From contig CP070719.1 in assembly GCA_020350725.1 (NCBI GenBank), positions 2,628,779-2,662,326 on the forward strand: a stretch of 33,548 bases of DNA, in the 5' to 3' direction. This stretch comes from a bacterium. Its GTDB lineage: Bacteria > BMS3Abin14. The notes under the pieces are model-generated. The model was given only the letters and a program-made list of their open reading frames with translations. It did no database searches and had not been told where the DNA came from. Every line of letters begins with the position of its first letter. The first letter of the stretch is position 1. A program made the position numbers and the translations under genes. Shown piece after piece: positions 2,735 to 33,548 of this stretch.

Positions 2735-2740
2735 GGTTCA

Positions 2741-3083
2741 AATCCAAAGTCCAAAATCCGAAAGGATAGTTCACAGTTCACGGTTTCCTGTTCACGGTTG
2801 GAAAACAGCCGTGATTAGTGACTCGTGATTCGTGATTAGTTAAAGAATCCAAAATCCAACGTCCAAAATCCAAAAGGATAGTTCACAGTTCACGGTTGGG
2901 AAACCGCCGTGATCAGTGATCCGTAATTTGTGATTCGGAAAGACTCGTTCACCGTTCACAGATATAGATTGCTTCACCCGGGGATCGGTTCGCAATGACA
3001 ACCGTTTTTTCTTCCCGTGTCTCCGCGCTCCCTCTGGACGCTGGCCTCTGGCCTCTGGACTCATTTCTCCCCGCGTCCGCTCT
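2741..3083 (-). repeat. Composite heptamer-repeat element, copy A
   Basis: The whole gap upstream of proB is made of period-7 word families: TCCAAAA, GTTCACG, GTGATTC and CTCTGGA types. Two tandem half-copies share GGATAGTTCACAGTTCACGG at 2764 and 2876. Read on the minus strand from 3083, the modules run in this order: CGGACGCGGGG with an AAATGAGTCC edge, GTCCAGAGG units, a GCGGAGACACGGG unit, an A-run, CGAATCACAAATTACG units, ATCACGGCGGT, GTGAAC units, and TTTGGATTTTGGA units. The same order occurs in plus orientation at 21094-21350. The outer edge supplies the last codons and stop of azlC. No protein or transposase is encoded. Confidence 0.85.
2966..2999. repeat. Small palindromic element (GTCATTGCGA / GAAGCAATCT type) inside copy A
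   Basis: On the minus strand this reads GTCATTGCGAACC, a short GC-rich centre, then GAAGCAATCT, with ATTGC and GCAAT arms facing each other. I recall similar GTCATTGCGA...GAAGCAATCT elements dispersed in other bacterial genomes, but I cannot search for them here. It sits inside the composite repeat at a point where the second copy (near 21228) has no such sequence, so it looks like an insertion into the repeat. Confidence 0.5.
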
Positions 3084-3780
3084 TCTCCCCTGCCCGTGGC
3101 CTCCCATCGAGAACGAGGCCGACAGTGGCCCCAATAATAGAGGCCGATATGACGAACCACGTTCCCCCCATGAAAAAGGAGAACAGGACGGACAGGGCGG
3201 CGGAGATCAGGGCGACAACCAGATGGAGCCTCTTTGACACCTGGAGAACGAGCAGCCCGACAAACATTGAGTAGAGGGCAAATTCGAGACTGCTCTGCAG
3301 GACAGCCGGGACGATCGAACCGGCGCCGGCGCCCAGTAACGTGCCGGACACCCAGCTCGCGTAGGCCGTGTAGTGCAGGGCCAGGCTGTACCGATAATCG
3401 ACGTCTCCACCGGCATAACCGCCGATGGAGATGGCGTAGGTCTCATCCGTGATGCCCCACGCGACAAAGGGGATGGAAGATCTCGGTGCGCTGCTGAAAA
3501 AGGGCGCCAGGGAGGCGCTCATGAGAGTGTGCCTGAGATTGATGAAAAAGGTGGCGAGGACGACCTCTACACCGGTCGCCCCCGCCGCCAGCAGGCCGAC
3601 CGCTATGAACTGACTGGCCCCCGCGAAGACGATCAGGGACATGAGGATGGTGGGGAAGAGTTCCATTCCGCTCTGTCTGGCGAGGATCCCGTAGGCGGCT
3701 CCCATGGGTATGTACCCGAAGATAATGGGCAGGGCGTCGGAAAGGGCCTTGCGAACCATGTCATTGGTGTCAGCGGTCAT
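3061..3780 (-). CDS. azlC: AzlC-family branched-chain amino acid permease
   Basis: A 239-residue inner-membrane protein with about six hydrophobic segments. The N-terminal region ALPIIFGYIPMGAAYGILA and the FAGASQF segment near residue 53 are typical of AzlC, the large subunit of the AzlCD branched-chain amino acid exporter. The family usually works with a small AzlD partner of about 100 residues; none is present here, and the upstream gene is a lipid-kinase-like protein instead. The start at 3780 is 14 bp from the end of that gene, so the two are likely cotranscribed. The last five or six codons and the TGA lie in the composite repeat element, so the C-terminal tail (GEKSGRGEK) is probably acquired. 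The substrate is not certain. Confidence 0.88.
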   Translation of the reverse strand: MTADTNDMVRKALSDALPIIFGYIPMGAAYGILARQSGMELFPTILMSLIVFAGASQFIAVGLLAAGATGVEVVLATFFINLRHTLMSASLAPFFSSAPRSSIPFVAWGITDETYAISIGGYAGGDVDYRYSLALHYTAYASWVSGTLLGAGAGSIVPAVLQSSLEFALYSMFVGLLVLQVSKRLHLVVALISAALSVLFSFFMGGTWFVISASIIGATVGLVLDGRPRAGEKSGRGEK

Positions 3781-20987: not shown

Positions 20988-21093
20988 ACCGTCCGGCCTC
21001 CTACTATAAGTTTAACCCAAGAACAAGGGAACGTAACACAGTTGAATTGATTATTGAAGAGTGCAAAGTCAACATACCCGAGGGGGGGAGACC

Positions 21094-21465
21094 GGACGCG
21101 GGGACAAATGAGTCCAGAGTCCAGAGGCCGGGGTCCAGAGGGGAGAAGAACAGACGCGGAGACACGGGGACGCGGAAATGCGAGGGGGCGGTGGGGCGAA
21201 AGACCGAAGCGGAGACGCGGAGAAAAAACGAATCACAAATTACGAATCACCAATCACGGCGGTCTCAACTGTGAACCGGGAACCGGGAACGGTGAACTGA
21301 GAACTATCATTTTGGATTTTGGATTTGGGGCTTTGGATTGATCTCTAATCTCTAATTTCTAATGCTCTAATGATCTGCTTTTGAACTGTGAACCGGGAAC
21401 TGTCCTTTTCGAATCACGAATCACAAATCACCAATCACGGCGGTCTCAACTGTTAACCGGGATCC
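21094..21465 (+). repeat. Composite heptamer-repeat element, copy B with a partial second copy
   Basis: About 370 bp of period-7 words without a gene. In order: CGGACGCGGGG with an AAATGAGTCC edge, GTCCAGAG units (21111-21140), GACGCGGAGACACGGGG units (21153-21222), A-run, CGAATCACAAATTACGAATC units, ATCACGGCGGT (21253), GTGAACCGGGAACC units, GAACTATC and TTTGGATTTTGGA units (21300-21340), and CTCTAAT units (21343-21370). A partial repeat of the second half follows (GTGAACCGGGAACTG, then CGAATCACGAATCAC and ATCACGGCGGT, 21382-21450). The order matches copy A at 2741-3083 in opposite orientation. The cupin promoter begins 24 bp after the element. Confidence 0.85.
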
Positions 21466-21488
21466 GTATGCCGGACACCCCCCCATTT

Positions 21489-32967: not shown

Positions 32968-33261
32968 CTAATCCCTGCTTTTGCTTAGCTTTCTAAGGAG
33001 ATCGAGATTGTCGGATATGAGGGCTAGTATTTTCTGACCACTCCAGCGTTTGATTTGATTTTCCCCATTAATGGCAGAACCTTCATCAGGATGTTCCTCT
33101 GTGTAGACCAGTTTGACTGGAAGGCGTGCAGATGTGTGACGTGAGGCGAATCCAGAACGATGCCAGAACAAGCGATTCTTAATGTTGCTCGTGTGACCAA
33201 CGTAAAGTGTGTTGTCGGAGCATCCCAGGATATAGACGTAGTATTTATGTTTATTTGTCAT
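32968..33261 (-). CDS. Small GIY-YIG nuclease-fold protein
   Basis: A 97-residue single-domain protein. The motif pair is YYVYILGCSDNTLYVGHT, with R in KNRLFWHRSG and the metal-binding Glu in AINGENQIKRW. It matches the small UPF0213/YhbQ-like GIY-YIG family whose cellular role is unclear. The chosen start is the ATG at 33261 (MTNKHKYYVYIL); a longer reading to 33333 adds residues not typical of the family. Base composition is visibly more AT-rich than the neighbouring genes, which points to transfer. It lies just downstream of the ssrA terminator. Confidence 0.85.
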   Translation of the reverse strand: MTNKHKYYVYILGCSDNTLYVGHTSNIKNRLFWHRSGFASRHTSARLPVKLVYTEEHPDEGSAINGENQIKRWSGQKILALISDNLDLLRKLSKSRD

Positions 33262-33419
33262 AGGCAAATAGGATGCAAACAATTTGCCAGAAGCTGTAAT
33301 CATAGAGTGCCCCTCGACGCGTCGCCCGTTCAATCAGCGACTTGCTCAGGGCATACGACGCGCTCATGTCTCTAAAACGGGCCACTCGAAAATACTTTGT
33401 GGCCTGCCATGAGCAAGCA

Positions 33420-33464: not shown

Positions 33465-33548
33465 TGGTGGAGGCGGCGGGAGTCGAACCCGCGTCCGGAA
33501 GCCTTCGGCCTCGCGGCCCTACATGCTTATTCCGTGTTTTCTGTCTCC
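33465..33548 (-). ncRNA. ssrA: tmRNA (ssrA), 3' end
   Basis: On the minus strand the segment contains AAGCATGTAGGGCCGCGAGG and ends GGTTCGACTCCCGCCGCC followed by TCCACCA. The T-arm with GTTCGA, the encoded CCA and the upstream AAGCATGTAG element identify the 3' part of tmRNA, which with SmpB rescues stalled ribosomes. The tag-coding part and 5' end lie outside the window. It could be mistaken for a tRNA, but the sequence before the T-arm is not a tRNA anticodon arm. Confidence 0.93.

Follow-up and report, generated by a model that had tools for sequence, protein, structure and literature searches.

Two composite repeats in the window, by which we mean the whole 33,548-nucleotide stretch analyzed here, lie 18 kb apart in opposite orientation, and they raise the question of whether a series of short words shared by both was copied as an ordered unit or arose separately at each place. 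An earlier note on this DNA had claimed that the same module order runs through the element at 2741-3083 (minus) and the one at 21094-21465 (plus), that this pointed to a copied or mobile unit and not to independent slippage, and that a lack of further copies would speak against it. Aligning element A (2735-3085, minus) with element B (21081-21470, plus) gave a single collinear local alignment scoring 161; in ∼290 random windows drawn from the same DNA, the median score was 19 and the highest 40. Searching the genome itself (2.78 Mb, one scaffold) with A returned ∼100 matches and with B 98, at identities that were typically 70 to 85%. The collinear alignment and the further genomic copies thus confirm the A/B observation. 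The listed words are present in both elements in the stated order, and it is correct that neither element encodes a transposase. The list of modules was incomplete, omitting the GTCATTGCGA...GAAGCAATC module of A (at ∼2967-2999), which B lacks, and the TCTAATC module, which is extra in B. The partial repetition of each element's latter half was also borne out, as a block of GTGAAC, TTTTGGA, AATCAC, and CACGGCGGTTTCCCAAC that is reiterated one to three times. The two elements are laid out as follows.

2735 to 3083, minus strand: element A, a composite heptad repeat between azlC and proB and a probable chimera of two genomic copies.
3030 to 3083, minus strand: head of A, in which TCCAGAG/GCCAGAG heptamers come after a G-rich lead GGACGCGGGGAGAAATGA; it is conserved across 48 heads.
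3005 to 3029, minus strand: GCGGAGACACGGG heptamers and an A-run, identical to the azlD-side copy at 1108827.
2984 to 3004, minus strand: CGGTTGTCATTGCGAACCGAT, 21 bases exactly common to A and to the copies beside obgE and azlD; probable chimera junction.
2967 to 2999, minus strand: q-r module of A, GTCATTGCGA...GAAGCAATC, a short imperfect hairpin.
2894 to 2960, minus strand: exact 67-base match to the obgE-side copy (279705-279771), where that copy stops at a scaffold gap.
2881 to 2939, minus strand: AATCACN array, CACGGCGGTTTCCCAAC linker, and GTGAACN array (the first c-g-n block).
2741 to 2876, minus strand: TTTTGGA array, a second AATCACN, linker, and GTGAACN block, and a terminal TTTTGGA array.
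21088 to 21465, plus strand: element B, upstream of the conserved gatC promoter region; head, TCCAGAG, GACGCGG, AATCACN, the CACGGCGGT linker, GTGAACN, and TTTTGGA, and after these TCTAATC, GTGAACN, AATCACN, and linker.
21094 to 21142, plus strand: head of B and TCCAGAG heptamers.
21229 to 21340, plus strand: AATCACN, linker, GTGAACN, and TTTTGGA block of B.
21341 to 21462, plus strand: TCTAATC module of B, then the second GTGAACN, AATCACN, and linker block.

The azlC stop codon (TGA, 3061-3063) falls inside the head of A, and the ATG of proB is at 2734. The 21341 to 21462 region of B is common to a copy at 659002 (78% over 238 bases), and B gave no sign of a chimeric join.

The word series in the earlier note is real, but the rule behind it had been overlooked: nearly all of the words are heptamers or arrays of heptamers, the main ones being TTTTGGA, GTGAACN, AATCACN, TCCAGAG, TCTAATC, and GACGCGG. 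Autocorrelation at lag 7 was 0.47 to 0.48 in A and B, with harmonics at 14 and 21, versus ∼0.25 for the majority of other lags. In the intergenic DNA of an unbiased 280 kb sample, we counted 36 exact 7-base tandem duplicates versus 0 to 7 in five shuffles, while duplicates of 5, 6, 9, and 10 bases were at chance and those of 8 bases marginally above it.

The modules follow one order, predominantly on one strand. Within the 0.72 Mb sampled of the 2.78 Mb genome, there were 91 chains of at least three modules each (counts that rest on these sampled stretches and on searches), running from the head and TCCAGAG/GACGCGG through GTCATTGCGA...GAAGCAATC to at least one round of GTGAACN, TTTTGGA, AATCACN, and the linker CACGGCGGTTTCCCAAC. 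Neighboring modules lay on the same strand in 495/509 pairs and on opposite strands in 14/509. Adjacencies fitted the grammar in 480/564 cases, whereas 1000 shuffles gave 182 on average and never more than 211; the comparison is descriptive because the order was read from the same data. Several transitions were directional, including GTCATTGCGA to GAAGCAATC (q>r, 75:0), GTGAACN to TTTTGGA (n>t, 40:6), and TTTTGGA to AATCACN (t>c, 40:8). The chains are confined to intergenic DNA, as an overlap of more than 60 bases with a called gene was seen in none of the 82 scorable chains.

Indels between copies are preferentially of whole heptads. Indels of 7 bases numbered 375 versus 97 of size 6 and 114 of size 8, and those of 14 bases numbered 46 versus 9 of size 13 and 10 of size 15. 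The claim that the pattern is not independent slippage therefore holds for the module order, but slippage does shape the copies, since the indel sizes peak at exactly 7 and 14. At distant loci, blocks of up to 350 bases were 94 to 100% identical, and many of the near-identical blocks abut 100-N scaffold gaps. In the gap-free near-identical blocks examined (627762/652578 and 280174/1306421), both ends fell within heptad arrays or homopolymer runs. This pattern resembles recombination more closely than it does excision and insertion, a reading of recombinational copying drawn from few block ends. Between two head-to-head copies, there is also an almost pure C/G low-complexity stretch (L002 ∼1438-1505; G000 ∼1393143-1393210), which adjoins a scaffold gap and is probably assembly noise.

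We consider it probable, if not strongly so, that these ordered composites belong, as a multi-word type, to the known class of heptameric intergenic repeats and arose by slippage together with block copying, with A probably chimeric. The family consists of a head (G-rich, ATGAGTCC), TCCAGAG/GACGCGG, GTCATTGCGA...GAAGCAATC, and one to three rounds of GTGAACN, TTTTGGA, AATCACN, and CACGGCGGTTTCCCAAC. Its heptad arrays would grow and shrink by replication slippage in 7-base steps or by unequal exchange. Whole blocks would be copied to other intergenic sites via recombination or template switching, with the process beginning and ending within such arrays. Because whole blocks would be copied, the module order would be inherited by descent from earlier copies. 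Selection would tolerate the repeats in the gaps between genes; there, the upstream gene often has its stop codon in the head.

The earlier note had proposed that the unit is a non-autonomous mobile element, and the ends of the composites bear on this directly. The 48 heads have GGGGAGAAATGAGTCCAGAG in common, and their conservation drops ∼14 bases upstream of ATGAGTCC, giving a fairly sharp left end that fits a mobile element with a defined end. The head TGA coincided precisely with the upstream gene's stop codon in 5/25 co-directional cases and in no opposite-strand case, which fits a target preference. Presence/absence polymorphism at a single site, as expected of miniature inverted-repeat transposable elements (MITEs), was found at obgE/proB and azlC/azlD, sites that hold nothing or almost nothing in several relatives. 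These observations would suit a MITE-like or site-specific element with left end GGGGAGAAATGAGTCC, mobilized in trans and inserted at gene 3' ends or ATGA stop/start overlaps. Against it, the right end is neither consistent nor fixed, the body repeats vary in number, and no inverted repeats of at least 12 bases, and so none of the terminal inverted repeats of a MITE, were found in A or B. There was no clear target duplication at the obgE/proB and azlC/azlD sites, a test that the unfixed right end makes unreliable. Given the lack of terminal inverted repeats, of a consistent right end, and of a linked transposase, a conventional MITE is unsupported, and we regard a mobile element as unlikely.

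Candidate mobilizing enzymes did not fit. Two Y1_Tnp genes are present, neither of them bracketed by modules, so that the REP/RAYT arrangement of palindromes flanking a Y1 transposase gene was not found. A GIY-YIG nuclease was rejected as the mobilizer of GTCATTGCGA, with proximity or bracketing in only 3 of ∼13 short copies in relatives and in none in this genome, the window included. The three genes in relatives lie within ∼150 bases of GTCATTGCGA...GAAGCAATC modules (L195, L196, and L220), and in L220, the modules form an inverted pair around the gene; a GIY-YIG gene with such a pair is possibly a small mobile element of those relatives. Within the window, a GIY-YIG nuclease gene (32968-33333, minus) adjoins the tmRNA gene (33465-33548, minus) at the window end and is not bracketed by repeat modules. 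Spread by plasmids or phages was likewise rejected, with no match in the plasmid or phage collection, and the GTGAAC-TTTTGGA (n-t) junction had no match in viral contigs.

The relatives that we compared are of the same family but of other genera. In their intergenic DNA, 7-base duplicates are likewise abundant, with words that differ by genus; arrays of GTGAACN and TTTTGGA are dense only in this genome, and the head order TCCAGAG, GACGCGG, GTCATTGCGA is common to this genome and genus g4. Turnover is rapid, with intercistronic sites either empty or occupied by other heptad words. In two g4 species whose genes are ∼85% identical, most intergenic segments of a collinear stretch have been replaced. 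At azlC/azlD, the genes join directly or overlap in two relatives and are separated by different heptad tracts in others, so the site was filled independently. Empty sites were thus present in relatives at obgE/proB and azlC/azlD, with the qualification that azlC/azlD holds other heptad tracts in some of them. Together with the dozens of copies and the nonrandom order and strand, absence at these two sites upholds the part of the earlier claim that concerned a copied ordered unit. Genus g4 also carries a 155-base repeat, GGGTCGCAAAAAGTC...GACTTTTTGCGAAGTCATC (L238 4622-4790), at more than 40 places in G003, with copies 82 to 91% identical and clean presence/absence between congeneric species; it is a good candidate for a MITE. 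In another relative (L301, G004 azlC), a heptad tract has apparently been read through into the azlC C terminus (..SKVQSPKGN..), repeats turning coding.

The GTGAAC-TTTTGGA (n-t) junction was absent from all other species of the public genome collection, in which this genome itself was left out. AATCACN arrays ending in CACGGC were found in more than 100 stretches, mostly in Lysobacteraceae and also in Bacteroidales, Bryobacterales, Betaproteobacteria, Desulfuromonadales, Gastranaerophilales, Caldilineaceae, and Limisphaerales; because CACGGC was part of the query pattern, this ending in other phyla is not independent evidence. DNA upstream of the AATCACN array in other phyla showed a lag-7 excess too. 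In Luteimonas, Lysobacter, and Pseudoxanthomonas (L089-L168), the arrays are arranged as inverted pairs (GCCGTGATT..CGAAAGAGC ... GCTCTTTCGAATCAC..GGC), in many cases shortly upstream of a start codon. Since the words change from lineage to lineage but the period does not, and since AATCACN-CACGGC recurs in Gammaproteobacteria, Betaproteobacteria, Acidobacteriota, Bacteroidota, Chloroflexota, and others, a dedicated process could write or spread seven-base-phased tracts into intercistronic gaps in many phyla, here as ordered composites whose head doubles as a stop codon. Such a process seems to us distinctly unlikely.

Element A as assembled joins azlC to proB, an adjacency that is probably not genuine. 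In the relatives, proB directly follows obgE in 11/11, and azlC is followed by azlD in 8/8 that have an intact close azlC homologue. Elsewhere in this genome, obgE (278298-279312) is followed by an element copy that runs into a scaffold gap at 279771, and azlD (1109217) is preceded by one that starts right after a gap at 1108826. These two copies, which end at 100-N gaps, match opposite halves of A: the left half is exact to the azlD-side copy over 48 bases (window 2984-3031), and the right half is exact to the obgE-side copy over 67 bases (2894-2960), with one mismatch over the 111 bases 2894-3004. The 21 bases 2984-3004 are exact in all three. A is therefore probably a chimera of the azlC-azlD and obgE-proB copies that crosses at 2984-3004. 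A true rearrangement, by ectopic crossover between the same two copies, would draw on the contiguity of azlC, A, and proB in the window without any N, on the fact that repeats are natural crossover sites, and on the common 21 bases as a possible site of exchange. We consider it improbable. The obgE-side contig runs past the junction with the right half of A, and the azlD-side contig begins with its left half, which in each case is the parental and not the reciprocal connection. Because both gap-ending contigs keep their parental connections, an assembly join is the likelier origin of A. The azlC-proB adjacency (window 2735-3780) is thus probably an assembly join inside a repeat and not real gene order, and this neighborhood should not serve as gene-order evidence. 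More broadly, 36/51 scaffold gaps lay within 200 bases of a module versus 16% of random positions; such repeats break assemblies and probably mis-join them.

We also asked whether the heptad arrays could be selected regulatory elements, acting on the downstream gene as binding sites or structured RNA. Downstream genes showed a slight bias toward the co-directional arrangement (51 versus 31 opposed, 82 chains), A ends one base before the proB ATG, and heptamers near start codons have been proposed as translational sites in Beggiatoaceae (PMC4679880). However, the link of A to proB is probably an assembly artifact, the distance to start codons ranges from 8 to more than 1000 bases, and the sites are not conserved between congeneric species. 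RNA structure was rejected as the cause of conservation, as folding (z of −0.79) was no stronger than in ordinary intergenic DNA (−0.74). Rfam covariance models run against the window matched neither element, their sole match being the tmRNA (33465-33548), and a literal search of the literature for the heptamers returned nothing relevant. A regulatory role appears quite improbable, and the composite repeats are probably for the most part selfish or neutral, lacking a transposase of their own. Had chance seeds slipped independently at each locus, without copying, the 7-base indels and the lineage-specific words would be accounted for, but as the sole cause such slippage is very improbable and effectively refuted by the order statistics, given six to eight unrelated modules in fixed order on the same strand, conserved non-heptad linkers (GGCGGTTTCCCAAC and GTCATTGCGA), and blocks 94 to 97% identical between distant loci.

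The predominance of heptanucleotide units among the intergenic tandem repeats of bacteria is a long-standing puzzle. Dozens of ordered multi-word composites in one genome, together with relatives in which the period is fixed and the words change, make it testable, as the junctions and indels to be expected differ between slippage, recombination, and dedicated copying.

Among known systems, the short tandemly repeated repetitive (STRR) sequences of cyanobacteria are heptameric. The repeats described here resemble these and the long simple sequence repeats (LSSR) in having seven-base tandem units that are dispersed, intergenic, and variable in copy number. They differ in that several unrelated heptamers and non-heptad linkers are ordered and copied as a block, whereas an STRR or LSSR array consists of one word without a larger ordered unit; the inner arrays qualify, and the whole is a variant. 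A passage in PMC4679880, citing Mrazek 2007, gives heptanucleotides as the commonest class of LSSR. The GGGNATC heptamer repeats of Xanthomonas and Nostoc are intergenic and scattered, and in Xanthomonas they often form convergent inverted pairs (Rehm et al. 2015, PMC4692102), a layout shared by AATCACN arrays in Lysobacteraceae (51/62). In contrast, our genome uses a different word, its AATCACN arrays are rarely paired (2/23) and sit inside a larger composite, and its words are not of the G-quadruplex type. TAACTGA direct repeats, found in Beggiatoaceae, Cyanobacteria, and Bacteroidetes, are intergenic and often upstream of start codons (MacGregor 2015, PMC4679880); like ours, they are heptamers scattered across phyla, with congeners differing by 7-nt indels, but they comprise one word in short arrays, with related heptamers rarely repeated and no composite order. 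MITEs and REP/BIME share with our composites a short, dispersed, noncoding, intergenic character, and GTCATTGCGA...GAAGCAATC forms a small hairpin; unlike them, A and B have no terminal inverted repeats and no fixed length, and their body consists of heptad arrays.
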